Source: Mesorhizobium sp. ZC-5 (lineage in GTDB: Bacteria > Pseudomonadota > Alphaproteobacteria > Rhizobiales > Rhizobiaceae). Taken from it: a stretch of DNA of 64,000 bases. The stretch spans positions 657,032 through 721,031 of the forward strand of contig NZ_JAOWPT010000003.1 of NCBI RefSeq assembly GCF_025753855.1, read 5' to 3'. Within the stretch, counting starts at the first letter, position 1; each line of letters starts with the position of its first letter. The notes below the pieces were generated by a model. It saw nothing but the letters and a program-made list of their open reading frames with translations, was not told the DNA's origin and made no database searches. Shown here in pieces: positions 4,882 through 37,257 of the stretch. The position numbers and the translations under genes were made by a program.

Positions 4882-4973
4882 CGAGGCATATCGCTTCAAA
4901 TTTGAGCGAAACGGGAAGCATTTCGTTTCATCATTTTGGCCATTCTCTGCAACCTGTCAGGAGGAGAGGTTGC

Positions 4974-7513: not shown

Positions 7514-9493
<1,980 letters not shown>

Positions 9494-9600
9494 CGCGTGA
9501 AGCTGCCTGCATCTGCTCGACATCGGCGGCCGGTCTCTGCTAGAAACCGGTCGCTTTCGAGAGGCGCGGACCATTTGGGGTAACCTTTAGGGAGGGGAAG

Positions 9601-10218
9601 ATGCCAGAAGAGCTACTTGCGGAACTCACAATCGGTGACCATGAATTTTTAAACAATGAGCGTATCCAAACTGGCAGACTCCGGGTGTTGGCGAACTCTA
9701 CATGGCAGGTGAGGCATGGTTGCCAAGTGTACATCGAGTGCCAGGTGCTTACGCTCGATGGGAGCCTTACCCTGGATGTTCGCGGCGAGAACGGCGTGGA
9801 CGGGATCAATGGTAGTCCGGATCGGCCAGGGTGGCTCAGCGGTCCACCAGAGGACCATAGAGCGGCGTGCTGGAATTGGTGGCTGGCCGTGAACACGGAG
9901 AACAAGAGCGAGGAAGGCGTCGACGCGACTCCCGGCACCGACGGGGGCGACGGCGGTATGCTGACAATACGCTATGTAAAGACGGGAACCGGAACTGATC
10001 TGGGTTCAATCAAAGACCCCCTTACAAGCGGCGGTATGCCCGGCAAGCCCGCTTACGGCAGCAAGGGCCAACTGATGGTTTGTGGTGCGCCCTACCACCC
10101 GCACCTCAAGGGCCACGTAAGGCAACGACCAAACGGTCGAGACTGGTACGGCCAACCAGGGCGGCCGGGAGAAGTTGTAATTGAACGCATCACAAGCGTC
10201 GTCGCCTGGCCGAGCTAA
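9601..10218 (+). CDS. Hypothetical Gly-rich protein
   Basis: A 205-residue protein with no signal peptide or membrane segment, and of a family I do not recognise. The first 80 residues look beta-rich (VRHGCQVYIECQVLTLDGSLTLDVRG). Two short Gly-rich stretches follow, GENGVDGINGSPDRPG and GTDGGDGG, which recall short collagen-like Gly-x-y runs. The C-terminus repeats G-x-P patterns (YGQPGRPGEVV). GGGAGGGGAAG directly upstream supports the start. Codon use is less GC-rich than the neighbours, which may mean recent acquisition. Confidence 0.6.
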   Translation: MPEELLAELTIGDHEFLNNERIQTGRLRVLANSTWQVRHGCQVYIECQVLTLDGSLTLDVRGENGVDGINGSPDRPGWLSGPPEDHRAACWNWWLAVNTENKSEEGVDATPGTDGGDGGMLTIRYVKTGTGTDLGSIKDPLTSGGMPGKPAYGSKGQLMVCGAPYHPHLKGHVRQRPNGRDWYGQPGRPGEVVIERITSVVAWPS

Positions 10219-10423
10219 CGGGCGGTTGCAAGCGCTTGGCTGAAGGCGGCTTCGAAGCGCTGCGGGACGACACCGTGCAATCTCCGTGAAAGCGGCCTGC
10301 ATCCGGGTGATCGCGTCACACGCAAGGCTCCGAGCCGACTTCACACACAACCGTTCCGAAGCATCCGGCGGTCGCGTGCCCGCCGCTGGATCGCCAGATG
10401 CCGGGCGCGAAGGCGGAACGAGC

Positions 10424-11905: not shown

Positions 11906-11935
11906 GGCAGGCATTGTCCGGCGCGAACTGGTCTC

Positions 11936-12913
11936 CTACGGGGTGCCGCGAATGATCGGCATGATCAGATCCAGCCGGTCGGTGGAGATGCCGCCAGAAT
12001 AGCCGGCCGGAAGCTGCCTGACCGTTTCCGGATCGTTCAGCCCGTCGGAAAAGCCACCGCCATGATAGGGGCCGAGCAGATAGACGCGCGTGCCCGCTGC
12101 CTCCATGCGGTCGAGGAAGCGGTCCGGCCAGCCCCACAGCCACGGCGCGATGTTTATCGGGATGAGCAATGACGTTCCCCGGCAGGATTCCGGCACGTAG
12201 CCGCTCCAGCCGAGCCCTGCATAACGTAGGACGCAGTGCATCAGCGTCTTTCGCGACAGCACGCGCTGGTCGGGCAGGGCCGCCTTGACGGTGTCGACGG
12301 GGGTGTTGCCGCCATAGACGGTGTGCAGCCTGCGTTCATCGGGTGGCAGCGTCGTCAGGTAGGCGGCAAGCTTCTCGCCCTCGGAGGCATCATTGCTCTT
12401 AACGTTGATATGGAAGGCGCGGCCGGGAAATTGCGAAAAAACCTCGTCGAGCGAGGGCATCAGACCGACGCCCTTGCCCCGGAACGGAAATGTCTTGCCG
12501 CTGTCCGCGGTGTAGCCGTAACCGACATCCAGCTTCTTCAACTCGGCCATGGAATGCTCGCGGGTGACGCCGCTGCCTTCGGTACGGCAGTCGAGCGTCC
12601 AGTCGTGGAACACGGCGAACTTCCCGTCGGTGGTCGGGTGCACATCGAGTTCCAGCACGTCGGCGCCCGCGGCGAACGCCGCTTCCATCGAACGAATCGT
12701 GTTTTCCAGATAGTCGTGCCGCGGCGGCAGCATGCGTTCGGCGGTGCAGGTGTCGCCGGTCAGCCCCTCGCGGCTGTATTCCTGCGCCAGGCCGCGATGC
12801 GCAAGGATGACAGGCTTGCCGGCGGGACGGCTGGAAAGCAGCGACGTGTTGTTCAGATAGACGGCACCGGCGATCGCCAGCAGCGATAGGAGTGCGACGG
12901 TGCGCTTGCGCAT
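11936..12913 (-). CDS. Glycerophosphodiester phosphodiesterase, membrane-anchored or exported
   Basis: A 325-residue GDPD-family enzyme that cleaves glycerophosphodiesters to an alcohol and glycerol 3-phosphate. A signal anchor occupies residues 5-25. The TIM-barrel motifs follow: ILAHRG with the catalytic His, LENT, VLELDVHPTTDG with the metal-binding Glu and Asp, and FHD with the second His. An insert with two Cys (GDTCTAERM) lies after HRG. The start at 12913 is chosen because the upstream extension has no signal character. It converges on the MFS gene. Confidence 0.85.
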   Translation of the reverse strand: MRKRTVALLSLLAIAGAVYLNNTSLLSSRPAGKPVILAHRGLAQEYSREGLTGDTCTAERMLPPRHDYLENTIRSMEAAFAAGADVLELDVHPTTDGKFAVFHDWTLDCRTEGSGVTREHSMAELKKLDVGYGYTADSGKTFPFRGKGVGLMPSLDEVFSQFPGRAFHINVKSNDASEGEKLAAYLTTLPPDERRLHTVYGGNTPVDTVKAALPDQRVLSRKTLMHCVLRYAGLGWSGYVPESCRGTSLLIPINIAPWLWGWPDRFLDRMEAAGTRVYLLGPYHGGGFSDGLNDPETVRQLPAGYSGGISTDRLDLIMPIIRGTP

Positions 12914-13099
12914 GAAATGCCTCTCACGGGAATCTGGGCGCCAGCCTAAATATCGATGCGGCGATTTCGCGGCTGTGACACGGTTGTCCAGGGGCAATCG
13001 AAACCGGCCGGATTGTTTCGCCAACCGGTTGCAGTTGACGGAACGTCGCTACTTGGCGATGATCTGCCTTGGGTTGGGGCATGCACGAGGACTGTGCAC

Positions 13100-14461
13100 A
13101 TGACGGAAGTCGGCTCCATGGCGGCAGGTCGTGCCGCGGATCGTGGCTCGGTAGCGGGTTATTCAGGCGAGAGCATGGGATCCTCCAGGTCCTCGTCAAC
13201 ATCCTCCTCGAGCACATCCGGTTCATCCAAAAGTTCCAGCTCCCGCTCCGATTCGGGGTCGTTCGGGGAAGGTTCGATGGCTGCCGGCCGCGCGGCGGAT
13301 CGCGGCTCGGTCGCTGGTTATTCTGGCGACAGCCGGCAGGGCAGCGGTTCCAGCTCCCGCTCCGATTCGGGGTCGTTCGGGGAAGGCTCGATCGCCGCTG
13401 GCCGTGCCGCGGACCGCGCTTCGGTCGCCGGCTATTCGGGCGACAGCAAGGCTAGCCGGGATCGGGCGTCGTTTGACGCAACGGTCAATTCGATGGCCGC
13501 CGCCCGCGCTGCCGACAGAAGATCGGTTCCGGGGTATTCCGCCGATTCCAGGCCGTCAGTTTCATCCGTCGAAAGGGCGCGCGTAACCGACGCCTACGCG
13601 GAATACGCGAGGTCCATGCTCCAGGCCGGGGTGACCCTGTCGGGAAAACCCATCGGGGTCACCAATGAAGGTCTGCTCGATACCGTGACGAATTCGGTGT
13701 CCGATTTCATCAACGAAGCGGTTGAACCGGTGACGAAAGCATTGGGGCCTATCTCATACGCGATATCGGGACTGTCCATGGTGCCGGACATCACCAAACT
13801 GAGCGGGCTTGCCTATGCGAGTTCCGTTCTGAACAGGGCCAAGCCCCTTCATTCAGCGACCATAAGGTCGATCTGGAACGCAAGCACGGTGGATCAGGCC
13901 CAGGGCTTCCTCAAGACCGGGCAGGCCAAAACCGCGATGCAAACCGCATCCGAATTTGCCGAAAGGGTGGGAAAAATATCGACCGGTTTGAGCATTTCCC
14001 TGGTCGGCCTCGCGGCGGCGCTCGAATACCAGTCCACCGGCAGCACGCTGAAAGCCACGGGCACACTCACGGCCGAAACGGTCGACGCGGGCATTGGCGC
14101 CCTGGTGACGGCCGGTGCGGCGTGGGGTGCGGCGGTAGGGGCACCGGCCGCCGGTGTGGGAGCGCTTCCGGGCGGTGTGATCGGCGGGTTGATCGGCGCC
14201 GGCACGTATCTGGCGGCTTCCCAGTCCGATTGGTATCAGGATGCAAAGAAGTCGATCAAAACGGGGACGGAATCGTTGCTGAACGGATTTTCCTGGACCG
14301 CGGCGGAAGAGGCCTTTGCGCCCTATGCGCAAATGCAGACATCACCGGGGTTCAGCTATGGGCTTGGCTATCGGTTTGGCGAATGGCTGGCTGGAAAGGA
14401 TACTGAACCGACTACCGGGATGTCGGAGTTCGACGACCGCGACGGACATAACCGCCGCTGA
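13100..14461 (+). CDS. Repeat-containing protein with Gly/Ala-rich hydrophobic domain, candidate effector
   Basis: A 453-residue protein I do not recognise. The first 160 residues hold four copies of a 20-residue unit (consensus SMAAGRAADRGSVAGYSGDS) joined by Ser-rich linkers (SSRSDSGSFGEG). Residues 170-330 are helical and Ala/Ser-rich. Around residues 355-400 there is a long Gly/Ala/Val hydrophobic segment (VTAGAAWGAAVGAPAAGVG, then GGVIGGLIGAGTYL), a glycine-zipper pattern typical of membrane-inserting toxins and glycine-rich transmembrane regions. There is no Sec signal. The start at 13100 has GAGG 9 bases upstream. A four-helix membrane protein follows after 31 bases, the layout of an effector and immunity pair; that role is inference. 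Confidence 0.7.
   Translation: MTEVGSMAAGRAADRGSVAGYSGESMGSSRSSSTSSSSTSGSSKSSSSRSDSGSFGEGSMAAGRAADRGSVAGYSGDSRQGSGSSSRSDSGSFGEGSIAAGRAADRASVAGYSGDSKASRDRASFDATVNSMAAARAADRRSVPGYSADSRPSVSSVERARVTDAYAEYARSMLQAGVTLSGKPIGVTNEGLLDTVTNSVSDFINEAVEPVTKALGPISYAISGLSMVPDITKLSGLAYASSVLNRAKPLHSATIRSIWNASTVDQAQGFLKTGQAKTAMQTASEFAERVGKISTGLSISLVGLAAALEYQSTGSTLKATGTLTAETVDAGIGALVTAGAAWGAAVGAPAAGVGALPGGVIGGLIGAGTYLAASQSDWYQDAKKSIKTGTESLLNGFSWTAAEEAFAPYAQMQTSPGFSYGLGYRFGEWLAGKDTEPTTGMSEFDDRDGHNRR
13233..13272 (+). repeat. Direct repeat, copy 1 of 2 (40 bp)
   Basis: A 40-base segment coding for part of the Ser-rich linker of the repeat protein. An identical copy lies 114 bases on. The adjoining 20-residue units differ at many silent positions, so the linker was duplicated or converted more recently than the units. 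Confidence 0.85.
13347..13386 (+). repeat. Direct repeat, copy 2 of 2 (40 bp)
   Basis: Second, base-for-base identical copy of the 40-base linker repeat inside the repeat-protein gene. Confidence 0.85.
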
Positions 14462-14492
14462 TGGATATGGCGCGGGACGGGTCCATATTGTC

Positions 14493-15161
14493 GTGAAACT
14501 GATCGAGGATATCCAGGATAGGCTGGTTCGCCGGCACTTCTACCGCTCGCCCGGCGAAGCCGTGTTCTTTTCGGATAGCCACGGCAATGCGGTGGACGAA
14601 ACCGGCAAGCCTCTTTTCTATCGCGACGGCGCCTTGTGGTATGTCGGCGCGGCGCATCAGTCGGAAAAGTTCAAGAGGAGCATCTTCGCTATGCTGCTGG
14701 TGGCAATGCTGGTCCCGATCGTCCTTCTGATAAACAGGTCGCCGAATTCGATCGCCTGGGCCGTGGTTGTTTTTGCTGGCGTCATATCGCTGCTCCTCTT
14801 TGCATTTTTCCGGTCCAGAAAAGAGCAGGCCGCCGATATGTCGGAAGGGAGGACCTTCAGGAGAATCACCTACACGGAATTCCGAAGAAAATTTTTCGGA
14901 TACAATTCTTCCGTCAGGACGTTCTCGTATGGCGGTTTTTTCGCCCTGAGCTTCGCCTGCATTTTCACGCTGACCGCATTGCTGCTCTCGCACGGCGCCG
15001 TGCAATATCTGTTCGTGTTCGCATTCCTGGCAATGGCGGCTTTTCTCGTCCTCGCCCTCTACTCGCTGGCCGTCAGGAAGGCATGGGAGCGGTATCGCGC
15101 CAGCCACGGCCTGGCTGCCGAGGATTTCATCCGCCCGACCGGAGAAGCGTTGCCGCGGTGA
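14493..15161 (+). CDS. Four-helix membrane protein, candidate immunity partner
   Basis: A 222-residue protein with an N-terminal soluble part of about 65 residues, then two hydrophobic hairpins at about residues 70-112 and 145-195 (FAMLLVAMLVPIVLLI, VVVFAGVISLLLFAFF, FFALSFACIFTLTALLL and FVFAFLAMAAFLVLALYSL). Cytoplasmic loops are Arg/Lys-rich. The GTG at 14493 is preferred because earlier in-frame starts overlap the end of the preceding gene and have no ribosome site; the start remains uncertain. It follows the repeat protein closely on the same strand, so the two are probably co-transcribed. No family assigned. Confidence 0.65.
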   Translation: MKLIEDIQDRLVRRHFYRSPGEAVFFSDSHGNAVDETGKPLFYRDGALWYVGAAHQSEKFKRSIFAMLLVAMLVPIVLLINRSPNSIAWAVVVFAGVISLLLFAFFRSRKEQAADMSEGRTFRRITYTEFRRKFFGYNSSVRTFSYGGFFALSFACIFTLTALLLSHGAVQYLFVFAFLAMAAFLVLALYSLAVRKAWERYRASHGLAAEDFIRPTGEALPR

Positions 15162-15173
15162 CCGCCAAACGGC

Positions 15174-16430
15174 TCACGCCTTGTAGATCACCTGGCGAAC
15201 GTCGATGTATTCGGCGCGGAAGCCGGCTTCGCAGTAGTGGAGGTAGAACTCCCACAGCTTCTTGAAGCGGTCGTCGAAGCCGAGCGGCACGATCTTTTCC
15301 CACGACGCCCAGAAGCGGGTGCGCCATTCGGCCAGCGTGCGGGCATAATCCTGCGGGAAGGCGCGTTCGCGCAGGAACGACAGCCCTTGCTCGGCGCCAA
15401 GCGATTTCAGGATCGCCGGCGTCGGTAGCATGCCGCCCGGAAACACGTAGCGCTGGATGAAGTCCGGCCGCTTGCGGTAGGTCGGGTAGGCGGCCTCGTT
15501 GATGGTGATGATCTGCAGCCCGGCCATGCCGCCCGCTCTCAGGCACTCCTTCACCTTGCCGAAGAACACCGGCCAGTATTTTTCGCCGACCGCCTCGAAC
15601 ATCTCGATCGAGGCGATGCGGTCGTATTTGCCTGTCTCGTCGCGATAATCCTGCAGCTTGATCTCGACCTTGTCGTTCAGCCCGGCCTTGGCGATGCGCT
15701 CGCGGGCGAAATCGTGCTGCTCGCGGCTGATGGTGAGCCCGGTCACCTTGCAGCCGATCTCGCGGGCGACGAATTCGGCGAAACCGCCCCAGCCGCAGCC
15801 GATCTCGAGCACATGGTCGCCGGACCCGATGCCGACGTCGCGCGCCAACGCCCGGTACTTGGCGTTCTGCGCGCTTTCCAGATCGTTGGCGCCCGCCGAA
15901 AACAGCGCCGACGAATAGGTCATCGTCGGGTCCAGCCACTGTTTGTAGAACTGGTTGCCGAGATCGTAGTGCGCGGAAATGTTGCGCTTCGAGCCGTGCC
16001 TGGTGTTCTCGTTCAGCCAGTGGCGGATGCGCTGCACAGTGATCAGCAGCCAGTTGGCGCCGCCAGCGACCCTTTCGCCGGCTTCGTTGTTGACGACGAA
16101 GAGTTCGAGGAAGCTGGTGACGTCCGGGCTTTCCCAGTCGCCGTCCATGTAGGATTCGGCAACCCCGATCGTGCCGCCGGCAAAGGCCCGGCCGGGCAGG
16201 TTCCAGTTGTTGAGGATGAGTTCGGCTTCGGGGCCGGGGGCATTGCCGCCGACGATGACCGACCGCCCGTCCGGCATGCGGATGGTGAGCGAGCCGCGCG
16301 GCAGGCCCATGCCCGCGGAAAGCACCATCCTGGCCTTGGCGGGAAGTCCCCTCGATATTTCCGCCAGATTTTCCGCGGTGAGCCGCACCGGCGCGCTCCA
16401 CGCGATTCCGTCAGTCCGATCCTTTTCCAT
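15174..16430 (-). CDS. Cyclopropane-fatty-acyl-phospholipid synthase family methyltransferase
   Basis: A 418-residue SAM-dependent enzyme of the CFA synthase family, which methylates double bonds of phospholipid acyl chains. The N-terminal domain is followed by HYDLGNQFYKQWLD, MTYSSALF and the SAM motif VLEIGCGWGGFAEFVA, then EMFEAVGEKYW and a YVFPGG segment. It is the last gene of a three-gene minus-strand cluster with DUF1365 and FAD oxidoreductase genes. Similar clusters are known from photooxidative-stress and modified-lipid loci in other alphaproteobacteria, so the product may be a methylated or furan fatty acid rather than a plain cyclopropane. A second paralogue is at 41533. Confidence 0.9.
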   Translation of the reverse strand: MEKDRTDGIAWSAPVRLTAENLAEISRGLPAKARMVLSAGMGLPRGSLTIRMPDGRSVIVGGNAPGPEAELILNNWNLPGRAFAGGTIGVAESYMDGDWESPDVTSFLELFVVNNEAGERVAGGANWLLITVQRIRHWLNENTRHGSKRNISAHYDLGNQFYKQWLDPTMTYSSALFSAGANDLESAQNAKYRALARDVGIGSGDHVLEIGCGWGGFAEFVAREIGCKVTGLTISREQHDFARERIAKAGLNDKVEIKLQDYRDETGKYDRIASIEMFEAVGEKYWPVFFGKVKECLRAGGMAGLQIITINEAAYPTYRKRPDFIQRYVFPGGMLPTPAILKSLGAEQGLSFLRERAFPQDYARTLAEWRTRFWASWEKIVPLGFDDRFKKLWEFYLHYCEAGFRAEYIDVRQVIYKA

Positions 16431-25415: not shown

Positions 25416-25460
25416 TGGCTCCCCGGGCCGGATTCGAACCAGCGACCAACCGGTTAACAG
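25416..25460 (-). other. 3' half of tRNA-Asn, island attachment site
   Basis: On the minus strand these 45 bases read as the 3' half of a tRNA-Asn: anticodon loop CTGTTAA (anticodon GTT), variable loop, T-arm GCTGG-TTCGAAT-CCGGC, acceptor strand CCGGGGA and GCCA end. The 5' half is missing: upstream sequence does not form a D-arm or a matching acceptor strand. A tyrosine integrase gene follows 500 bases away. This is the expected displaced attachment copy left when an element integrates at the anticodon loop of a tRNA gene. The restored tRNA should lie at the other end of the island, to the right. Confidence 0.8.
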
Positions 25461-27396: not shown

Positions 27397-27594
27397 CCTT
27401 TGCCCCCTTTGGTTGGAGCGGCGCAAGGCAGGGCCATCATTTTTCAACTTCCGACGAGCCAACAACCCTTCATCCTGCGAGTCACGTCAACCTGTGCCCG
27501 CAAATTCGCTACTCGTGTGAGCGCCGCTATGCCGGATTCTGCCGTTCAGAATGTGGACTGCCATAAGCGAAAATAAGGAGCGCGCGCCGCTGCA

Positions 27595-27888
27595 TCATTC
27601 TCGAGTCAAACCCTGGACTTTCGCCTGCGACTTTCTCGGTCGCCGAATCGCAACGCCAGGACCTCGTTCGGCCTCACTGTCGATGAAAACAACCCCTTCT
27701 TTCTCCAACGCCCGTTTGACCTTCTCGAACGTTTCATAGGGTACCCCCTTACCGCTAGCTTCGATGCGGGCGATGGTTTGGCGGCTAACTCCGGCTCGGG
27801 CAGCTAGTTCTTCCTGGCGAAAGCCCAGCAGCGCCCTACCGGCCCTAAGCACTCCAACAATCTCCGGCAACGGCGGAAAGGGTTCCAT
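27595..27888 (-). CDS. Xre-family regulator of the island cassette
   Basis: A 97-residue regulator: helix-turn-helix at residues 12-50 (LRAGRALLGFRQEELAARAG, SRQTIARIEASG) and a C-terminal GVVFIDSEAERGPGVAIRR tail like that of the 19672 protein. It is divergent from the gene run that starts at 28129, and an imperfect inverted repeat lies between them, so autoregulation and control of the run are likely. ATG at 27888 is preferred over TTG at 27927, which lies inside that repeat. Confidence 0.82.
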   Translation of the reverse strand: MEPFPPLPEIVGVLRAGRALLGFRQEELAARAGVSRQTIARIEASGKGVPYETFEKVKRALEKEGVVFIDSEAERGPGVAIRRPRKSQAKVQGLTRE

Positions 27889-27918
27889 TCCGTCATCTCG
27901 AACGAGCGGACTGCGAAA

Positions 27919-27954
27919 TGTCAACAATTTGGCACCCTGCCCATATTGTTTACA
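27919..27954. promoter_or_regulatory. Inverted repeat, likely Xre operator
   Basis: TGTCAACAATTT and ATATTGTTTACA form 12-base arms with ten matching pairs around a 12-base spacer, 31 bases upstream of the Xre start and between it and the divergent cassette. Position and symmetry suit an operator. Confidence 0.5.
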
Positions 27955-28128
27955 TTAAAAGCGAATCGTGGGAATAATTCTCACATTATCCGCGTGTGCC
28001 GATGATGGGTTGACGGGAGGCAGTGAATGATTCGTCGACGCGTCCTTGAGCTTGATGGCTGTCGCGGCATGCAATGACTTGAACATCGGGCGCTCAAGGG
28101 CGTCGCTCAGGTAGAGGGAGGAGGGACC

Positions 28129-28491
28129 GTGTATTGTTTTGGGAACCGACGTGCCGAGACCGACTACTGCGCCATTCGCGCCGAAATCGCCCGCCTGGAA
28201 AAGCTTGTGGCAGATCTTGAGATCGTCAGCGGCACCCTCCCATTTCCGCTCGACCAAATGCTTGCGAGAGCCCATCCGACCGCGCCGATCCTTGATGACT
28301 GGCGATTTGCATTCAGCCCTGCGCCGTGCCTGGTCGCGCTATCGACCGGACATCCGCGATTGCCTGGCGATAGACGCTCGATTGTCACCTCGGAAATTTT
28401 CCTGATCTCGGAGGAAATCGGTTGGGCGCGCTCGTTTTCGCGCTGGTACCGCCTCGGGCGGCGGTTCGATGATGCGGCGGGAGATTATTGA
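28129..28491 (+). CDS. Hypothetical protein, first gene of island cassette
   Basis: A 120-residue soluble protein with a Cys pair near the start (MYCFGNRRAETDYC), a short coiled segment (AIRAEIARLEKLVADLE) and a basic C-terminal part (SEEIGWARSFSRWYRLGRRFDD). Not recognised. The GTG start has the very strong site GGGAGGAGGGA. Its stop is one base before the start of the AAA+ ATPase, so the two are translationally linked. Confidence 0.65.
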   Translation: MYCFGNRRAETDYCAIRAEIARLEKLVADLEIVSGTLPFPLDQMLARAHPTAPILDDWRFAFSPAPCLVALSTGHPRLPGDRRSIVTSEIFLISEEIGWARSFSRWYRLGRRFDDAAGDY

Positions 28492-28492
28492 C

Positions 28493-30355
28493 ATGTCCCC
28501 GACCTCAAACGCCGATATGTCAACATTTGATTCCCGTCTTGCACGCCACTTCCTGCGCAGGCTCAGTCATGCCGCCGGGGATGCCGCGCTTAAACTGGCG
28601 ATTAAAACGGGAATCCTTGAACCCGGATATGCGCTGATCGATGGCCGTCGCGTCAAAACCTTCCGACCCGGTGTGGTGCTTCGGGGCAAGAGCGAATCCG
28701 AAATCGAACGAATTCTGCAAAAAAGCCGCCGCCGGGCCGTGCGTCAAAAATGGCAATTCGGCTCCGATGAGAATGGCTTCAACCTGCCCACTTTTGGCCA
28801 GGAGCCGCCTGCTCCGGGAAGCGCAACGGACAATGGGGCGGAATTTTCTGCCGAGCGGGACGACGGTGACGCGGCTGAGACAAGGATTGAGCAAGTCGGT
28901 GAAGCCTTGCCCGCTCGACCGATTGCAGAGCTGTTGCGCATGGTGCGGCATTCCGCTGAATCCTCGCGCCCGCAGGACGTCGCAACCCTTCTGCTGGTGG
29001 CCCAGGGACTTGTTCGAAGTCGGATTTCGCTCGAAGAGGCGCTCCGCATACTGAGCGTTCCCCAACCGATCGTCGCGGTCTCTTGTGATGTGCTGGGCTT
29101 TGAAGACAGTTTTGTTGACCTGCTTGAGCGTGGGCTCGTGCTGCCCGGAAAAATCGCACGTGCGAACGGATACGACATTTCCCGGAAGCGAGGATTGGGC
29201 TTTTCGACAACCGGTGAGCCGCAATGGGAAGTTTTTTGCTTCGCTGGCAAGCAGCGTCCCGATGAGGATTGGGAGATTGGTGATGCCGCGCTGATGGGGT
29301 TTCCTATCGTGGGCGTCACCGAAAAGCGCGACGTCCTGCCAAAAGGACTGGCGGCTGCGGCAATGCTTGATCTGAATTGCGGTGCTCTGAGCGCCGAGAT
29401 CGTCAACGGTACAATAGAAGCCGTCCTCGGCGGTACCCCAAGCGAATCCTTGCAGCCCGGCGATTATCCGCGACTTGGGCTTTCGGATCTGGCGATCGCC
29501 ATCCGGCCCGGCGTCTCGCCGTCGCGGGCAATTGTTATTCTTCGGGAGATCGTTGCGGCAAAAGCGAAGGCTGGTGACGACGGCAAAGCCGAGGACGAAA
29601 CGTCCCCTAGAAAAATGTGGGACGGAAAAAAGCCCGCACATAATTCCACGGCAAAGAATGATCGCGGCAAGGGTACCTCAGGCAGCGAAATCATTCAGCC
29701 TGTGCGGCCGACGGGAGACGAGACCAAGGACTGGTCCATCCTGCGTGTCGAGACGCTGTCGGGTTATGGCGAAGAAGTCACCGAATGGGCGTTGGCGTTA
29801 AAACAGGACCTGGAGTTATGGCGGTCGGGTGGCCTTGCGTGGAGCGACATGGTCTCGAAGCTGTTGCTCTCCGGCCCTCCGGGCACGGGCAAATCGCAGT
29901 TCGCCAGGGCCTTGTGCAACACGCTGGGCATTCCGCTGATCGCCACATCGGTGGCGACCTGGCTGGAGCCAAGCTATCTCGGCGACGTCCTGAGACGCAT
30001 GTCGAAAGCCTTTGCCGAGGCGCAGGATCATAGTCCGGCGATCCTGTTCATCGACGAGGTCGACGGTTTCGGCAGCCGCGGGCGATCCAGGACCCACGAT
30101 GATTACTGGAACGCTTTCGTCAACAAGGGGCTGGAACTGCTCGACGGTGCAGTAAAATCCTCTGGCGTGATCATTGTCGGGGCTGCCAACAACCCCGGGG
30201 CCATCGACAAGGCGCTGCTGCGTTCAGGGCGGCTGGAGCCCCACTTTGAAATCCCGCGGCCAGATACCGATGCGCTGGCAGGCATCATACGTCATCATTT
30301 GAAGGATGATCTCGACGTGGTTGTCGCCAGTGCGCCCGTGAAGGCGAGGAGCTGA
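28493..30355 (+). CDS. Soluble FtsH-like AAA+ ATPase, lid domain and protease missing
   Basis: A 620-residue protein. The first 400 residues are unfamiliar, without membrane segments, partly low-complexity (around 100-140 and 365-400). An AAA+ core follows: Walker A GPPGTGKS near residue 460, Walker B ILFIDEVDG near 518, sensor GAANNP and the arginine finger in LLRSGRLEPHFEIP. It stops just after the start of what would be the small lid domain (ALAGIIRHHLKDDLD). The lid and an M41 protease domain are coded by the next gene, two bases away. The pair is therefore a split FtsH-like protease. It lacks the membrane anchors of true FtsH, so it should work in the cytoplasm. The start at 28493 follows GCGGGAG. 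Confidence 0.8.
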   Translation: MSPTSNADMSTFDSRLARHFLRRLSHAAGDAALKLAIKTGILEPGYALIDGRRVKTFRPGVVLRGKSESEIERILQKSRRRAVRQKWQFGSDENGFNLPTFGQEPPAPGSATDNGAEFSAERDDGDAAETRIEQVGEALPARPIAELLRMVRHSAESSRPQDVATLLLVAQGLVRSRISLEEALRILSVPQPIVAVSCDVLGFEDSFVDLLERGLVLPGKIARANGYDISRKRGLGFSTTGEPQWEVFCFAGKQRPDEDWEIGDAALMGFPIVGVTEKRDVLPKGLAAAAMLDLNCGALSAEIVNGTIEAVLGGTPSESLQPGDYPRLGLSDLAIAIRPGVSPSRAIVILREIVAAKAKAGDDGKAEDETSPRKMWDGKKPAHNSTAKNDRGKGTSGSEIIQPVRPTGDETKDWSILRVETLSGYGEEVTEWALALKQDLELWRSGGLAWSDMVSKLLLSGPPGTGKSQFARALCNTLGIPLIATSVATWLEPSYLGDVLRRMSKAFAEAQDHSPAILFIDEVDGFGSRGRSRTHDDYWNAFVNKGLELLDGAVKSSGVIIVGAANNPGAIDKALLRSGRLEPHFEIPRPDTDALAGIIRHHLKDDLDVVVASAPVKARS

Positions 30356-30357
30356 TC

Positions 30358-31113
30358 ATGAACGCTCCCGCAACTGACCCCGCTGCCGCCAACCGCGTGC
30401 TTCGCTACCTGGCGCGTAGAGCCAACGGCATGACCGGGGCGGATATCGAGCGCGTGATGCGCGAGGCCCGCCGCAAGGCTCGCAGCGAGAAGCACCCGCT
30501 CACCTTTGCCGACATCGAAGCAATCCTTGCCTCCTCAAAAATTGCCAGGCCCGATCATCTGCGTTTCCGCATGGCGATCCACGAGGCTGGGCACGCCGTG
30601 GCGCGCATCCGGCTGGAGCTCGGTGAGGTGACGATGATCACGATCGATGCCCCGGAGGGTGGTTTTGTCGCAGGATCCCGCGATAGTGCGTATGAGCCGA
30701 CGGAAGAGCTGCTCACTGGGATCCTGGTTTGCACACTGGCCGGACGTGCCGCCGAACAGGAATTGCTCGGGCCGATCGTGGCGTGTGCCGGTGACGACGA
30801 CACCAGCGATCTCGCTGTCGCGACCCGACTTGCCTTCGACATGGAGACCAGGCTTGGCTTCGCACGGGACTGGCCGTTGCTTTATCGCAGCACCGAAGAT
30901 CGAACGACGATCCTTCTCCAGAACCGGGAACTGGCAGCGCGGGTGAATGCACGGCTGGACAATGCCTGCGACGCTGCTCGCGAGTTGGTCGTGCGGCGTC
31001 GGCCAGCCATCGAATTCGTGGCGGGCGAGCTGTTGATACACGACACCCTGGAAGGCTCCCAACTCGATGCGGTTGTCACCCAGGTCAGGAAGATGGTGGC
31101 CGACCCGCCATGA
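30358..31113 (+). CDS. M41 zinc protease with AAA+ lid domain, partner of the ATPase
   Basis: A 251-residue protein corresponding to the C-terminal half of FtsH. Residues 10-60 are the AAA+ lid (RANGMTGADIERVMREARRK). The M41 domain has the zinc site HEAGH at residues 75-79 and the third ligand Asp near 151 in TSDLAVATRLAFDMETRLGF, which aligns with the E. coli FtsH D-x-x-x-A-T pattern. GAGGAG lies just upstream of the ATG, so it can be translated by itself. The reading frame differs from the ATPase gene, so either this is a true gene split or one fused gene broken by a frameshift near 30340. Confidence 0.82.
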   Translation: MNAPATDPAAANRVLRYLARRANGMTGADIERVMREARRKARSEKHPLTFADIEAILASSKIARPDHLRFRMAIHEAGHAVARIRLELGEVTMITIDAPEGGFVAGSRDSAYEPTEELLTGILVCTLAGRAAEQELLGPIVACAGDDDTSDLAVATRLAFDMETRLGFARDWPLLYRSTEDRTTILLQNRELAARVNARLDNACDAARELVVRRRPAIEFVAGELLIHDTLEGSQLDAVVTQVRKMVADPP

Positions 31114-31219
31114 TTTGGAACGCCACGGCGAAACGCGGCGGCACCAACGGGAAGAGCCTGCGCAACCGGGCCGATCGGAAGTCCGACATGCAGGCAAGAT
31201 GTAATTTGCGAGGGCCGAT

Positions 31220-32062
31220 ATGAGGCTTTGGATCTGGTCGGATTTGCACCTCGAAATGCAAGACATTCCACTGCCGTCCCAGGCTCCCGACGGGGTGGAT
31301 GTCATCGTCTGCGCCGGCGATCTCTGCTATGCGCCCGATCTCGAGCGCCGGGCCTTCGACATTGTGCGTCGTTACGATCTGCCTCTGATCTTTGTGCCGG
31401 GAAACCACGAATATTACTGGGGCGGCTCAAGCGCCCGGTCGAAGCCCTCCGATCATCGCGCAATGAAGGAGGCAGCCGAGGCGTCAAAATCCTGGCGGCA
31501 ACCACTCATTCTGCTGGATGACGACATCGCAGAGATTGACGGTGTTCTTTTCATCGGCGGCACGCTGTGGACGGATTTCAAAATGGGTCTCGAGAAAGAG
31601 GCTGATCTGCGGTGGCGGATGACAGCTGCACCGAACCAACTCGCCGATTTCTCGCAGATCCGGCAGGGTAACGGGGAGCGGCTGTCGCCGCAGGTGATGC
31701 TGGGCCTCAACATCTTGACCTACGGCTTCATCGAACGGGAGTTGTCGATCCCGTTTAATGGCAAGAAGGTGGTCGTCACCCATCACCTGCCGCACCCCGA
31801 CTGCACCCCGGAATTCTATCGTGGCGGTCATCGCGGCGATGCCAATTACCTGTTCGCCTGCAGCGAGCATCTATTCGGTGACATCCTGAACTCCGAAGCC
31901 GCTCCGGCTCTTTGGGTGTGCGGTCACACGCACCATCCCGCCGATGTCACTGTCGGTAGGACCAGAATCGTCTGCAACCCGCGCGGCTACCTGGCTTTCG
32001 CCAACGAGCGCAACAACGGCTTTCGCTGGGATCTCGTCATCGACACGGAAGAGTTACAGTGA
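31220..32062 (+). CDS. Calcineurin-like metallophosphoesterase
   Basis: A 280-residue phosphoesterase with all metal motifs: SDLHLE (D-x-H), CAGDLC, GNHEYYWG, VVTHHLPH and CGHTHHPAD. It probably binds two metals. The target could be nucleotides, nucleic acid ends or phosphoproteins. No signal peptide, so it is cytoplasmic. It overlaps the next gene by four bases (GTGA), and 106 bases separate it from the protease gene, so it is part of the same run. Metallophosphoesterases recur in phage-defence loci, which is context only. Confidence 0.88.
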   Translation: MRLWIWSDLHLEMQDIPLPSQAPDGVDVIVCAGDLCYAPDLERRAFDIVRRYDLPLIFVPGNHEYYWGGSSARSKPSDHRAMKEAAEASKSWRQPLILLDDDIAEIDGVLFIGGTLWTDFKMGLEKEADLRWRMTAAPNQLADFSQIRQGNGERLSPQVMLGLNILTYGFIERELSIPFNGKKVVVTHHLPHPDCTPEFYRGGHRGDANYLFACSEHLFGDILNSEAAPALWVCGHTHHPADVTVGRTRIVCNPRGYLAFANERNNGFRWDLVIDTEELQ

Positions 32063-32553
32063 ACGGTCTGGTTGGAATCCGGAGGAAGCTTGGCAACTAC
32101 GCGCTCGGACACGGCGGCCATTTTGAGGTCGCGAAGGCTGGCAAAGTTCTGCGTGTCACTGTTGATTTCCATGTCCACGAGATCTGCGGCGCAATGCGGT
32201 TCGTCGATCGGCTGTTCAAGGCTTCGGGCATTCGAAACAACGTCACAGTTGTCCTTGGGCCAGCCCGTCCCATAGACGGGGCAATGCTGGCCGCCTCAGT
32301 CTTCCTGGAGTTCTATCGATACGCTTGCGAGCACAGGGGGCGTTTTCATGTAAGCCCGCGGCTCGATAGGACGACGGTTCTGTCGAGCCTGGAAATCTTC
32401 GCCGATTTCGAAGTGGGCGAAGAAGCAGCGAGAGACTGGCTGGCCGAAACGATCTGGATGTTTGGGCTGAAGGCGACTGCACTACCGTGGCGGCTCCTCA
32501 ACGAAAGAGATCGGCAATGCCTCTTGGAGAGGAGCGAGGTCGTAGGCCTATGA
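32059..32553 (+). CDS. Unknown protein, first of two tandem paralogues
   Basis: A 164-residue soluble protein, family not recognised. It is clearly related to the next gene: both open with IRRKLxxYAxGHGGxF, share a V-V-F-H strand, a SGI turn, an RYAxHxxGRF segment, and end with WLxExIxM and LNExxR. GTG at 32059 overlaps the stop of the phosphoesterase gene, and its own stop overlaps the ATG of the paralogue, so the three are translationally coupled. Confidence 0.7.
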   Translation: MNGLVGIRRKLGNYALGHGGHFEVAKAGKVLRVTVDFHVHEICGAMRFVDRLFKASGIRNNVTVVLGPARPIDGAMLAASVFLEFYRYACEHRGRFHVSPRLDRTTVLSSLEIFADFEVGEEAARDWLAETIWMFGLKATALPWRLLNERDRQCLLERSEVVGL

Positions 32554-33068
32554 GCGAAAACGGAGCGTCTGCCGTGAACGTGCCCGACGAAATCCGCAGG
32601 AAGCTGAAGCTTTACGCCTTCGGCCATGGCGGACAGTTCGATATTGGCTCCACGGAAGACCGTGTTCGTGTTGGAGTAAAGTTCCACCCGTATACGTTTA
32701 GTCTCGCGTACATGTTCGCAGAAGACGTCTTCCGAGGGAGCGGAATCGATGTCGAGTTCAAGCCCACATTGCTCGACAGGATCGTCGAGCCCAACGGCGA
32801 GCAGGTGGTGCGGCTGTTTTATGACGAACTGAAGCGGTATGCCGAACACCAGAGCGGCCGTTTTATCTTCGCACGACCGCCGGGCAATCGCATCGCTACG
32901 TCATCGATGAAGGTCTACGTCGACTTCGCCGACGAGCAGGCCGCGGTCGGCTGGCTCGAGGAGATGATCATGATGCTCTTTTTCCCCGCGGTCGCCATTC
33001 GCTGGAGCAAACTAAACGAGGCAGCACGCAATCGGATTTTGGAAAGTGCTGGGGTGCTAGGCAAATGA
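32550..33068 (+). CDS. Unknown protein, second of two tandem paralogues
   Basis: A 172-residue paralogue of the previous protein (EIRRKLKLYAFGHGGQF, ELKRYAEHQSGRFIFARPPG). The start at 32550 forms an ATGA overlap. Divergence between the copies is high, so the duplication is old and the two may form a heteromer. It precedes the reverse transcriptase gene by 158 bases. Confidence 0.7.
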   Translation: MSENGASAVNVPDEIRRKLKLYAFGHGGQFDIGSTEDRVRVGVKFHPYTFSLAYMFAEDVFRGSGIDVEFKPTLLDRIVEPNGEQVVRLFYDELKRYAEHQSGRFIFARPPGNRIATSSMKVYVDFADEQAAVGWLEEMIMMLFFPAVAIRWSKLNEAARNRILESAGVLGK

Positions 33069-33226
33069 GCGTGGTGCGCAGTTTGTTGGGGGGCTCGACG
33101 CTTGCCGGGGAGCGCGTTGGCGGCCCACTTTGGCGAAGAATCGGGTGGCAGCCGAGCTAGGAGTTTATTTATTGCGTTTTTAGCCGTGCCTGTGCTGTGT
33201 TGCGCAGAGACTTTGGGAGGGGCGAC
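33069..33226 (+). other. Leader region upstream of the reverse transcriptase
   Basis: These 158 bases carry no gene. They contain GCTCG at 33093 pairing with CGAGC at 33153, with further GC-rich complementarity inside, so a folded RNA is possible. Many defence RTs have a partner RNA near the gene. No structure was computed. Confidence 0.3.
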
Positions 33227-34864
33227 TTGGGAGATATCAAACTCGGAGAGCCCTTTGGAATGGACCTCGCTGGGCTTTCCGACGCGGACTGGACCTTGTC
33301 GCTCCAGCGCGTCATCCATGATCTGCGTTCGGACTTCATCTACGCGCCGCATATCGGCTTCATCTATCGGAAAGTCGGTCAGGATCTCGTCGAGATCGTC
33401 AAGCGGGAGCTGAAAGACGGCCAATACAAGCCAGGCCTGCCGCTTACGATCGAAGTCCCCAAATCGCACCGCATGCGAGTAAGAGTTCGTCCGCCGAGGC
33501 CAGGTCCAGCCTATTCCCGGCCCGGCAGCATTCTGTTGCCGAAAGACCGGTTATTCTACCAACTCTTGGCCGACAAGGCAGCTCCGATCATCGAAGCGAA
33601 AACTGATCAATCGCGATCGTTCAGCCATCAGCTTGAAGACGGCGGTTCACCCAGCATGTTTAAGTCGACGCGGGCGTGTTGGGCAGAACTTCAGAAGGCG
33701 CTGAGCCGGCACTCGTCCGGCAAGAAAAACAAGTACGTTGTGAAGATAGATGTCGCGAACTTCTTCGGATCACTGAATCAACACACGCTGATCAACGTCC
33801 TCGCTGACGCCGGTTATCCCACTAAGTTTCTGACACGATTAGAAGCACTGCTCACGGCCTACACGGGCGAGAGGAGTTCGAGGGGCATTATCCAAGGTAT
33901 TTATCCTTCCGACCTGCTCGGGAATTTCTATATGGAACCTATCGACCGCTTCCTTGCTGATCAAGACATCCCGTCCGCGCGGTATGTCGACGACATGTAC
34001 ATATTCCTCAGCAGTGTCGACGCGTCCGAACAGTTGATGAGGCAATTGATTCCCGAACTCCGCAGCTACGATTTGGTGCTTAACGAGGCCAAGTCCGCGA
34101 TCATGCCGAAGACTGCATTGAACACGGAGGAGCCGGACCTTGAAGCCTTGTTTGAACAGGCTGTGGAAGAGATTTCAAACCAGATCGATGAAGAGGACTT
34201 CGACGCTGACTATGGATTCCAGTCAGAATGGGAAGACGAGGACGAGCCGGAAACCGAGCACGACGGTGAAGACGATGATGAAGACCTTGAGCTCAAGGCC
34301 ACGAAAGTACTATTTGATGCCATCGCCGACCATCCTGGACATGAGGAAACCATCGAGCGCTTCTGTCTCCCCCTATTCGCAAAAGCCTCATCCGATTACG
34401 CGGTTGATCATGTTCTCGACGCATTCAAGAAACGGCCGTCAATGTCTCAGATTTACGTTTCCTATCTGGCGAAATTTCTGCCCCAGATTACCATCTATCA
34501 GTTTCTCTGCCGAAGCATTGAAGACCGGTCACTGGTGGACTGGCAGGTAATGTGGATTCTGGCCGCACTGATCACCAAGGAGCCGCCTGACGATGCTCCG
34601 GTTAAGACGGCACTCCAAATCCTGAAGGATGGCTCGGTGCACGACGCGACGAGGGCGACGGCAGCGATCTACGTTGGCCGATATGGCGACGCGGCGAGAC
34701 GGCGCGCATTGATCGCTGTTTACGGGTCGCTCTCCCCATACGTGCAATCTGCCATCTATTTTTCGTCTCGATACTGGCCGAGGAACGAACGCAGCAACGC
34801 GAGAGCGCAGTGGGGCGCTCTCGGTCCGTTGAATGAGTTGCTCACGAAGGCAATGGCGAAATAG
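33227..34864 (+). CDS. Reverse transcriptase with helical C-terminal region (defence-type)
   Basis: A 545-residue protein. The RT domain occupies about residues 60-310: ILLPKDRLFYQLLAD (finger region), KIDVANFFGSL (motif A with catalytic Asp), GIIQGIYPSDLLGNFYM (motif B) and ARYVDDMYIF (motif C, the YxDD box with both Asp). A very acidic stretch (DEEDFDADYGF, EDEDEPETEHDGEDDDED) follows near 315-360, then about 180 helical residues that look like HEAT-type repeats. There is no maturase, so it is not group II intron type; the layout recalls Abi- and DRT-type defence RTs. TTG at 33227 is taken as start for its GGGAGGGG site; GTG at 33197 is possible. I cannot assign the subtype by eye. Confidence 0.85.
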   Translation: MGDIKLGEPFGMDLAGLSDADWTLSLQRVIHDLRSDFIYAPHIGFIYRKVGQDLVEIVKRELKDGQYKPGLPLTIEVPKSHRMRVRVRPPRPGPAYSRPGSILLPKDRLFYQLLADKAAPIIEAKTDQSRSFSHQLEDGGSPSMFKSTRACWAELQKALSRHSSGKKNKYVVKIDVANFFGSLNQHTLINVLADAGYPTKFLTRLEALLTAYTGERSSRGIIQGIYPSDLLGNFYMEPIDRFLADQDIPSARYVDDMYIFLSSVDASEQLMRQLIPELRSYDLVLNEAKSAIMPKTALNTEEPDLEALFEQAVEEISNQIDEEDFDADYGFQSEWEDEDEPETEHDGEDDDEDLELKATKVLFDAIADHPGHEETIERFCLPLFAKASSDYAVDHVLDAFKKRPSMSQIYVSYLAKFLPQITIYQFLCRSIEDRSLVDWQVMWILAALITKEPPDDAPVKTALQILKDGSVHDATRATAAIYVGRYGDAARRRALIAVYGSLSPYVQSAIYFSSRYWPRNERSNARAQWGALGPLNELLTKAMAK

Positions 34865-35027
34865 GAGGGACCTAGACCGCACATTTTAGCTAAACGCTGC
34901 GTCGACCGCCGAGGCAGCGGCGGATCGTGGCAGCATATGCTTGCTTACACACGCGCTGCAGGCCTTTCCTGAGGGCATGACGCACACAGACTTGGAATGG
35001 AGACCACACGAGGGCGGACCGCGTGAT

Positions 35028-36674
35028 TTAGCCGAATACACCCTCGGAACCGGGCACCTCGGGCAGCTTCTTCTTCACCGCAGCGAGGATATCTTTCACA
35101 AATTGGGGGATGTAGCCCTGCTGGACTAGGGCCTCGGCGACGAACCGGGCTACCAAGGGCTTGTTGCGATCGCTGGAGATGCCGAGTTCGATCCGCGCTT
35201 TTATCTCCAACTCGTCGTACAGGCCCGCTTGGATCGCCTCCACATGCGCGCGACATTGCAGTTCCCAGTTGCCCTGCAGGATCGCATAGTTGTCATTTAC
35301 GCAGGCGGCAGGCTCGTCCGCTTCGTGGAGCCCAAGTAGGCGACACAGCGTCCGGTTGGCGGCTTTCTCGGAAGGCTTTCCGCCGTCATTGTCGAAGACG
35401 ATGTAGGTCCGGATGCCATGCACCTCATACAGCTGCGCCAGCGTATCGATAGTGGCCTTGCCGCCCGCGGACACAACGGAAATACCATACTCGTCGAAGT
35501 CCAGGCCGCAGGAACGGGCGAACACTGGCATCGCCTCGCGCTCGGACGGACCTTCGACTACTATAGCAACGCTCGCAAAGAACACCTCCGTCATTTCGGC
35601 CGTGCGGACGTTCCGGATGAAGGCTCGTACCGAGTCGACCGTCATCTGGTCGCGATAGGGATGCAGCTTCTTTCGCGCTGCCAGCAGGTCTTCGCTGGAG
35701 GCCATCTGCACTTGTGTGCAGACCTCGTCATCTTCGTCCTTGCACCTATCCACAAGCACGATGCGGTCGCTGCGGGCCACATCCAGGAAATGCGCGCTAT
35801 GAGTGGAAATGAAGATCTGGTTGCCTGCCATTGCCAGCCCCTCGAATTGTTTCATCAGGCTGCGCTGCGCATGAGGGTGCAAATACAACTCGGGCTCCTC
35901 GATGCCGAGCACCGCGTCTCCCCGAAAAGACTTCGCGAATGCTTGGAAGAGCGCAAGCACTAGCACGTTCCGAACGCCCGAGCCGACCTCGAGCGGGCTC
36001 CGAGGCACACCGTGTTCAACCAGCGTCGGATAAAGGCTACGATAGAGGTTCGTCTCCTCGAGCGTGCGGAATTCGAATGAGACGTCGTAGCGGGCTGTCT
36101 TCAGCTGAGCCGCGAAGGCATTTTTTAGTTCCTGCTCAAAAGCTTTGTACTGCTCCGTCTGCAGCAGTCCATGCGCGGTGTTCAGCGCCTCGCGGAGCTG
36201 CGTCAGCTGCTCGCCGCTGTCCTTCAGAGTCTGATGCAGGTGGCGCAACGCCTGACCAAAGATCGACCAACGAGAGGTAGAGAACTGACGCTCGTAGTTG
36301 CGGCTGGCATCAACATAGGCGAAGGCCAGCTCCTCCCGGTGGGCATTCGTGAAGGGTCGGACGGGCCTTCCTTGGTTGTCGAGAGCGTTTAGCGAATATT
36401 GTGGTTTAGACGTGTCAAACTCGATCTCGGAAACGTATGGATGATCTAGGCAGAGCCGAATGTAGACGCTGTTGTCGCGAATACGCCCATAGAAGTCGGA
36501 GTCATCGAGGTTCGCGGGCATAGGCCACCGCTCCCCCAGAATAAAATTTATCGCCGATAGGATGTTCGTTTTGCCAGCGTTGTTAGCCCCGACAAGGATA
36601 CAAATGTCCTCCGGATAGAAGTCGACGTATTTGATCGACCGCCAGTTTGCGATTTGGACACGGGTAATCTTCAA
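35028..36674 (-). CDS. OLD-family ATP-dependent nuclease
   Basis: A 548-residue OLD-family protein. The SMC-like ATPase domain has Walker A GANNAGKTNIL near residue 30, a signature helix SPLEVGSGVRNVL, Walker B GIEEPELYLHP and STHSAHFLD. The C-terminal Toprim nuclease domain shows VVEGPSERE and FDNDGG. Such proteins cut DNA and act in phage defence, alone or with a UvrD-like helicase (Gabija). No GajB-like helicase is adjacent, so this is probably a stand-alone OLD protein. The TTG start at 36674 is preceded by GGGGGA. It converges on the reverse transcriptase gene. Confidence 0.9.
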   Translation of the reverse strand: MKITRVQIANWRSIKYVDFYPEDICILVGANNAGKTNILSAINFILGERWPMPANLDDSDFYGRIRDNSVYIRLCLDHPYVSEIEFDTSKPQYSLNALDNQGRPVRPFTNAHREELAFAYVDASRNYERQFSTSRWSIFGQALRHLHQTLKDSGEQLTQLREALNTAHGLLQTEQYKAFEQELKNAFAAQLKTARYDVSFEFRTLEETNLYRSLYPTLVEHGVPRSPLEVGSGVRNVLVLALFQAFAKSFRGDAVLGIEEPELYLHPHAQRSLMKQFEGLAMAGNQIFISTHSAHFLDVARSDRIVLVDRCKDEDDEVCTQVQMASSEDLLAARKKLHPYRDQMTVDSVRAFIRNVRTAEMTEVFFASVAIVVEGPSEREAMPVFARSCGLDFDEYGISVVSAGGKATIDTLAQLYEVHGIRTYIVFDNDGGKPSEKAANRTLCRLLGLHEADEPAACVNDNYAILQGNWELQCRAHVEAIQAGLYDELEIKARIELGISSDRNKPLVARFVAEALVQQGYIPQFVKDILAAVKKKLPEVPGSEGVFG

Positions 36675-37257
36675 ACGCGGAATCCCCCAAGCACGCCCAA
36701 ACTATAGTCACGCACGGGCGAAGGCGAATCGATTGTTTAACCCGGTCCGGCCTCAAGACCACGAGCGCCAGCCCATCCGCCGTCATTGATCTTCTAAGTC
36801 GCGGGCATTCCTTACCCTTAGATGACGATGAGCAGCGGACCGCCCATACCAACGCGCATCGCGTTGGACGCCAAGGACCGGGAACGCTGGTTTTGCCAAA
36901 TGCCTTCTCGATAGTGGACGGTCGGGTTGCGCCCCCCCTGTCGGCGAGGCCGCCAATATTTTTCAAACATATCGAAGCTCTCGCGCTGCTGGGCTGGGAT
37001 GGCGGCGGCATCAATGCCGCCCAACGTCAGCAACGGCGGCGACGATCGTTCTGCGCAGCCATACATGTCGCGGGGAATCCTGATGGGGCGCGTGCCAGGC
37101 AGGCTTATCACGACGCGTGGGAGCGGAATTGGTGCGCGCCTTGCCGTCGTTCGAGACATCCATCACAACAATCGAGTTGGCTCGATGTTGGCTGAGAAAC
37201 GCTAGCAGACGACAGGCTATAATCGGTTCGCCGATCCGCTTCACCGGTAACGCCGCG
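36675..37257. other. Intergenic region, nothing supported
   Basis: About 580 bases between the OLD nuclease start and the end of the sugar oxidoreductase gene. Open frames exist on both strands, but none has a ribosome site and a recognisable protein. It may be decayed island sequence. Confidence 0.5.

Follow-up and report, generated by a model that had tools for sequence, protein, structure and literature searches.

AAA+ proteases are, in the textbook picture, rings in which the core and the lid of a subunit lie on a single chain, and the lid of every subunit packs against its neighbour in the ring. The anti-phage system IetAS combines an AAA ATPase with a protease, and IetS is a subtilase. 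In the nuclease-protease pairs and canu, as presented in one study, a trypsin-like or caspase-family protease frees a nuclease of the metallo-beta-lactamase fold (PMC12799240). Here, we analysed a stretch of 64,000 nucleotides from Mesorhizobium sp. ZC-5 (hereafter the window; contig C3, positions 657032-721031, the end of the window being the end of the contig). The window carries a cassette in which a divergent Xre-type regulator adjoins genes for a small DUF6634 protein, an AAA ATPase (AAA chain), an M41 metallopeptidase (M41 chain), a metallophosphoesterase (MPE) and a pair of paralogues. As judged from sequence, the cassette is best read as a mobile conflict module, most likely directed against phages (a reading to which we give a probability of about 0.55), and it could represent a phage-defence system that has not been described before.

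The AAA and M41 chains

The features of the cassette are as follows:

27595-27927, minus strand: Xre-type regulator, divergent (HTH_3, E 3e-9)
27928-28128, no strand: divergent control region, with a promoter-like TTTACA-18-AATAAT at 27949-27978
28129-28491, plus strand: DUF6634 small protein, GTG start with GGAGG ahead (PF20339, E 8e-12)
28493-30355, plus strand: AAA chain, ATG start (PF00004, E 7e-28; TIGR01241 positions 198-347)
30358-31113, plus strand: M41 chain, comprising most of the AAA+ lid and the zinc metallopeptidase (PF01434, E 1e-11; TIGR01241 positions 355-597)
31220-32062, plus strand: calcineurin-like MPE (PF00149, E 9e-12)
32059-32553, plus strand: paralogue A, no assigned family; its start overlaps the MPE stop by 4 bases
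32550-33068, plus strand: paralogue B, no assigned family; predicted model with two alpha-beta-beta-alpha-beta units

An open reading frame (ORF) check, with starts GTG at 28129, ATG at 28493 and TTG at 33227, returned the genes, strands and gaps exactly as the initial annotation had described them, that is, seven same-strand genes, the last of which codes for a reverse transcriptase (RT; see below), separated by 1, 2, 106, -4, -4 and 158 bases. All of the motifs sought were present (GPPGTGK, LFIDEVD, AANNP, RSGRLE, HEAGH, SDL, DLH/GD/GNHE/THH/GHTH and YVDD).

The AAA chain consists of an N-terminal part of about 440 residues without a Pfam match, followed by the AAA core. The M41 chain has its own ribosome site (GAGGAG) and contains a match to AAA_lid_3 (E 5e-6; 26.3 bits, slightly below the cut-off of 27.2). 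Against the FtsH profile TIGR01241, the AAA chain matches up to position 347 and the M41 chain from position 355. A seven-member profile of M41 matched FtsH structures with an E of 3e-26; on FtsH 7vhp, the core of a fused homologue stops at 336 and the M41 profile restarts at 349, and on FtsH 2ce7 the two meet at 200. From these limits of the profile and structure alignments, the cut is therefore placed inside the AAA+ module, between the core and most of the lid; the first lid helix presumably stays with the core, on our reading of FtsH structures. HEAGH and the Asp of SDL align with FtsH positions that we take to be zinc ligands. A simple hydropathy scan found no membrane helix in either chain (maximum over 19 residues, 1.44 for AAA and 0.97 for M41). 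As judged from sequence, it is highly probable that the AAA and M41 chains are two parts of one FtsH-like, two-chain AAA+ zinc protease.

Relatives were collected by a scan of a genome collection, using an alignment of seven split M41 proteins as the query, and the best 80 of 116 were retained as M41 loci (two of these, L115 and L036, are the same contig). In 76/80 loci, separate reading frames encode the AAA core and M41; two loci have them fused (L064 of Chelativorans and L143 of Phyllobacterium) and another two are incomplete, the AAA part being missing within the contig. The split genes overlap by 4 bases in 56 of the 76 split loci, and in L065, L070 and L072 the AAA and M41 halves are separated by a DUF6634-like gene. 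A tree of 109 rows, drawn with a midpoint root, has a branch (support 97/95) that sets apart 87 rows, comprising the split loci and both fused ones; among these, the fused Chelativorans L064 is the sister of the window (100/96). Since fused and split forms occur within the same branch, both are taken to belong to the same machine, and the two chains to act as a single enzyme; on this tree, the simplest history would be that the genes of L064 and L143 became fused again. Across the order, M41 matches at E 1e-12 were present in 30/297 genomes, that of the window included, the weakest of which may be ordinary FtsH.

Partner genes and genomic setting

The gene content of the 80 loci was assessed by tblastn (E 1e-4). 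Window-type DUF6634 was found in 14/80 loci, a small protein with a different type of sequence in 56/80 and an Xre homologue in 7/80. The MPE was found in four of the 80 (L066-L069, from three Mesorhizobium-group genomes), directly after M41. These four loci carry Xre-DUF6634-AAA-M41-MPE together with an additional AAA gene, encoding about 520 residues, between DUF6634 and the AAA chain; this gene is 68-90% identical among the four, and its Pfam AAA match was shown for L067. AAA proteins of 514-522 residues, with DUF6634 and MPE matches and no M41 match, were also seen in L227 and L198. A divergent Xre beside DUF6634 occurs in L064, L066-L069, L143, L227, L228 and L268, the last being the locus of genome G551 described below. 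L228 belongs to the genome of the window itself (C12:126400-146300); the Xre-DUF6634 pair at about 9187-10900 of this locus is a second one, and the ORF after it resembles, by eye, part of the AAA gene of about 520 residues of the Mesorhizobium-group loci. The window DUF6634 is 31-58% identical to the six other DUF6634 sequences aligned with it. As to the control region, promoter-like matches in 27400-35100 numbered two, both inside 27928-28128, a number equal to that expected by chance (2.1).

Outside the window, the MPE and a paralogue were found together in G551, which is of another genus in the same family. One strand of the G551 locus holds DUF6634, a fused AAA/M41, an MPE, a second MPE and one paralogue, with Xre divergent, so that the gene order matches that of the window. 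The G551 DUF6634 is 54% identical to that of the window; the fused AAA/M41 (711 residues, with GPPGVGK and HEAGH) shows 34-35% protein identity; the first MPE is 36% identical, the second 75-85% identical to the window MPE, and the paralogue 73-82% identical to B. At the DNA level, similarity runs from 31220, the start codon of the MPE, to 32126 and again from 32557 to 33073, at about 77% identity, and ends five bases past the stop of paralogue B. This DNA identity, set against a protein identity of about 35% for the cores, suggests that MPE and paralogue moved as a block between differing AAA/M41 cores, and on this comparison they look like a separable, swappable module. The search for loci of this kind covered 297 genomes of the order (paralogue B), 248 of the family (paralogue A) and three of the G551 genus. 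The initial expectation that the genes co-occur was borne out for those other than the RT, which recur together in G551 (with one paralogue) and, without the paralogues, in four loci of three Mesorhizobium-group genomes.

The metal-site motifs of the MPE are invariant across eight aligned sequences, and the protein matches in part the PADLOC candidate PDC-S10 (E 2e-7). When 33 other MPE loci were examined, DUF6634, AAA or M41 was found within 5 kb in seven. The two proteins at the end of the cassette, initially described as homologous, are true paralogues (35-36% identical; 35% at E 1e-20). Neither matches a family in Pfam, PADLOC, NCBIfam or PHROGs, and the best match of their profile, compared by sequence with solved structures, had an E of 0.13. 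AlphaFold2 modelling of paralogue B from two input sequences only gave, for the best of five models, a predicted local distance difference test (pLDDT) value of 86 and a predicted template modelling score of 0.80; the weakest two models had pLDDT values of 67 and 57. Paralogue B was detected in 1/297 genomes of the order, i.e. only its own, and paralogue A in 2/248 genomes of the family, its own and G551. No match was found to paralogue B in plasmid records, or to the alignment of the pair in viral contigs.

In the Rhizobium branch, a gene for a PD-(D/E)XK-like protein stands in place of the MPE-paralogue module. Relatives of this upstream protein, of 295-330 residues, are present in 63/80 M41 loci. 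We also noted, in this branch and ahead of the PD-(D/E)XK-like gene, an unknown protein of about 400 residues without a Pfam match (L096, 4847-6118), the cluster of which is found in 42/80 loci.

Two features near the cassette concern the island:

25416-25460, minus strand: 3' half of tRNA-Asn, 45 bases, probable island attachment site (context); exact copy within the intact tRNA-Asn on contig C15
25963-27396, plus strand: island integrase, Arm-DNA-binding (context; PF13356, E 2e-14; PF00589, E 4e-11; phrog_1 integrase)

Some 500 bases separate the half copy from the integrase; no tRNA gene was called at 25416-25460. Because the intact tRNA-Asn is on contig C15 (46904-46978), the far end of the island is placed off the window's contig, and the island probably continues on another one. 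Among the 80 M41 loci, 39 have recombinases (serine, tyrosine or window-type) within the flanks retrieved, and 21 have restriction genes there (type I subunits, Mrr); the same probes found neither in 31 control stretches from genomes of the family (0/31). The tyrosine-recombinase probe itself scores below the Pfam integrase cut-off (21.8 of 27.1 bits), and a gene of 776 residues without a Pfam match was left out of the recombinase count. Further along the window, the ten larger ORFs scanned in 41533-63743 belong to molybdoenzyme, molybdopterin biosynthesis, LysR, two-component, permease and methyltransferase families, with no defence family among them.

The neighbouring reverse transcriptase and OLD nuclease

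Two genes follow the paralogues:

33227-34864, plus strand: UG20-type defence-associated reverse transcriptase (DRT), TTG start with GGGAGG ahead (PADLOC RT_UG20, E 1.8e-233); neighbour outside the cassette
35028-36674, minus strand: OLD-family ATPase/TOPRIM nuclease (PF20469, E 4e-17; PADLOC GajA, E 9e-46, and Old, E 7e-45); neighbour outside the cassette

The RT aligns over residues 19-553 with positions 1-511 of the RT_UG20 profile, and has YVDD. An order-wide search found it in 3/397 genomes, its own included, and six other loci with UG20-like RTs were compared: G323 (79% identical), G056 (37%), plasmids of Sinorhizobium medicae (79%) and Rhizobium acidisoli (36%), a plasmid of Candidatus Manganitrophus (Nitrospirota; 62%) and Chelativorans salis (38%). 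At five of the six, the 18-22 kb fetched gave no match (E 1e-3) to AAA, M41, MPE, paralogue, DUF6634 or Xre; in Chelativorans, AAA/M41 lie 8 kb from the RT on the opposite strand. Conversely, among the 80 M41 loci the RT was found only in L064 (1/80) and OLD in none; the RT was not found in L066-L069, nor matched in the 20 kb fetched at G551. Window DNA from 32000 to 36700 is similar to the G323 and S. medicae loci only over 33224-34865, i.e. the RT gene, and to the Manganitrophus locus only over parts within the gene. An alignment of the RT matched nine RTs in viral contigs, at 21-31% identity and over part of the protein only.

A conserved non-coding RNA neighbours the RT in DRT2, DRT9 and DRT10. 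Across four UG20 loci, two of which are 81% identical within the gene, no DNA similarity longer than about 12 bases was found outside it, a comparison that a diverged flanking RNA could escape. The UG20 RT, seen as a lone gene in genomes and plasmids of Rhizobiaceae type, in Chelativorans and in a Nitrospirota plasmid, is thus a candidate for a stand-alone DRT, possibly one without a flanking RNA. Several of the other RT loci have neighbours of their own. In L034 (G323, contig C28), an ORF at 4639-5433 (264 residues, YMDD) looks by eye like a second RT, about 4 kb from the UG20 RT. In L058, from the R. acidisoli plasmid, a UG20-like RT in two frames (8697-11573) comes shortly after a macro-domain/DarT-like pair, with SIR2 and ATP-binding genes nearby. 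L035 (G056) has, within 8044-15539, a UG20-like RT and, about 5 kb from it, a match resembling OLD (28%, E 2e-7), which may be likened to the window, where OLD likewise adjoins the RT. The integrase and OLD adjoin the genes as first described; OLD, like the RT, is a neighbour outside the cassette.

Interpretation and relation to known systems

Several observations weigh against reading the cassette as a mobile antiphage module. No cassette gene reaches the cut-off of a known defence family. The MPE was undetected in 76/80 M41 loci (two of which end within 1 kb of M41) and the paralogues were found in 0/80; within 5 kb of the MPE, 26 of the 33 MPE loci show none of the cassette genes, and the link between MPE and paralogue outside the window rests on one other locus, G551, where the nearer-related MPE and paralogue are broken, with match pieces in several frames, and a single paralogue is left. 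As to the PD-(D/E)XK assignment of the Rhizobium-branch protein, the PD...DxK pattern comes from inspection by eye of only six sequences, and the VRR_NUC match is below threshold (E 0.008). The count of 76/80 split loci describes the nearest relatives only, since the query was built from split forms, and the wider family looks mostly fused, 37/40 order-wide matches to the window M41 lying in open frames of at least 421 residues. The recombinase and restriction probes were drawn from the test loci, which favours the test set even with self-hits removed, and a single genome supplied 8 of the 31 control stretches. Two copies on plasmids have RepA/replication-initiation or repABC genes nearby, which would fit plasmid maintenance too.

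This last point belongs with a rather unlikely alternative, in which the cassette has a regulatory or addiction role: AAA/M41 would remove the Xre repressor or an antitoxin-like partner, and so induce or maintain the island or plasmid, with no part in antiphage defence. ImmA, acting on ImmR in ICEBs1, offers a parallel, and the divergent Xre adjoining a metalloprotease operon, the two plasmid copies near replication genes and the recombinases near 39/80 loci are all in keeping with such a role. However, a homologue of the Xre of the window was found in only 7/80 loci, so that in the Rhizobium branch the search could see no such partner for the split protease, and exchangeable hydrolase partners would be superfluous. 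Somewhat less probable still is accessory protein quality control, with no conflict function, by a soluble FtsH-like protease that a mobile element carries; AAA and M41 are indeed FtsH relatives, and among the more distant relatives most appear to be fused into one protein, but the patchy presence (30/297 genomes of the order), the lack of a membrane helix by simple scan and, again, the exchangeable hydrolase partners argue against it.

That all seven genes, the RT included, form one defence machine, as the initial annotation had supposed, we regard as very improbable. The genes share a strand, with only 158 bases before the RT, the RT is of a DRT group, and Chelativorans has AAA/M41 and a UG20-like RT within 8 kb; yet the RT stands without any cassette gene in 5/6 other loci and with AAA/M41 on the other strand in the sixth, the cassettes of G551 and of the four Mesorhizobium-group loci have no RT found with them, and RT homology is confined to its own gene. 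Cassette membership of the RT is just as improbable; it was rejected in view of the RT loci without cassette genes and of this confinement of DNA homology, and the proposed cassette stands as a unit of Xre, DUF6634, AAA, M41, MPE and paralogues. The chance that the split is a recent frameshift or a sequencing artefact of a fused gene is negligible: the close relative L064 is fused, but M41 has its own ribosome site, 76/80 of the nearest loci are split and three of them have a gene in between, and on these grounds the artefact was ruled out.

If the cassette is, as we favour, a mobile conflict module, it could work as follows. Xre would hold down expression of the operon; recognition of a trigger or substrate would fall to the N-terminal part of the AAA chain, possibly together with DUF6634; and the lid-protease chain would dock between neighbouring AAA cores, completing the ring. 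ATP-driven unfolding and proteolysis would then destroy a phage protein, or free or activate an effector, after which the MPE, tuned by the paralogues, would hydrolyse nucleotide or nucleic acid; in the Rhizobium branch, the role of effector would pass to the PD-(D/E)XK-like protein. Both the RT and OLD would act independently. The sequence of sensing, degradation and nucleotide processing put forward at first survives only for the AAA/M41/MPE part, as a proposal. We raise more tentatively, as possible though doubtful, that these loci represent a new class of mobile alphaproteobacterial immune machine, in which the ring is completed in trans by the lid-protease chain, effectors are interchangeable, and the cut serves as a switch, assembly occurring only when triggered.

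With a natural, widespread family cut inside the AAA+ module, it can be tested directly how far ring coupling needs a covalent link between core and lid. If the cassette is antiphage, it would add an ATP-driven metalloprotease with swappable hydrolase effectors to a field that has only recently begun to regard proteases as triggers of immunity. The analysis also removes a false lead, in that the neighbouring RT is to be treated as a stand-alone UG20 DRT.

In keeping with the initial remark that no named system has this set of genes, the PADLOC and NCBIfam system models cover neither DUF6634, M41 nor the paralogues (PADLOC 2.0 has no models for DUF6634, M41 or either paralogue). In the open-access literature, no paper was found on DUF6634 and no dedicated study, by title, on the UG20 RT (PMC8934634 names UG21 once). 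Nor was a description of the cassette found among the titles and abstract starts listed for DRT, FtsH-like/M41 defence, IetAS, MPE defence, soluble or separate-chain FtsH and rhizobial Zn protease, a survey of the open literature outside which most subscription papers fall.

Among described systems, the RT of the window matches the whole UG20 profile and stands alone, and the OLD neighbour matches both the OLD and the Gabija GajA models, on the opposite strand and not as part of the cassette. As precedents for the proposed mechanism, IetAS and the nuclease-protease pairs come nearest, but the cassette is neither of them. The cassette resembles IetAS in having an ATPase and a separate protease chain, and its AAA domain matches IetA models (E 2e-17); it differs in that the curated IetA/IteA cut-off is missed by far (62 of 510 bits) and in that the protease is M41, with no subtilase or IetS match among ten window proteins scanned. 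With the nuclease-protease pairs and canu it shares protease and hydrolase genes that travel together and are repeatedly recruited by conflict systems (PMC12799240); it differs in pairing an ATP-driven M41 protease with an MPE or, in the Rhizobium branch, a PD-(D/E)XK-like partner, which the protease may activate. The likeness to FtsH is that its AAA core, lid and M41 domain align across the two chains of the window; these chains nevertheless miss the curated NCBIfam cut-off of TIGR01241 (88 and 54 bits, against 600), have no membrane anchor by hydropathy, carry a large N-terminal part without a Pfam match and are patchily present, and, unlike FtsH, are two separate polypeptides, cut between the core and most of the lid.

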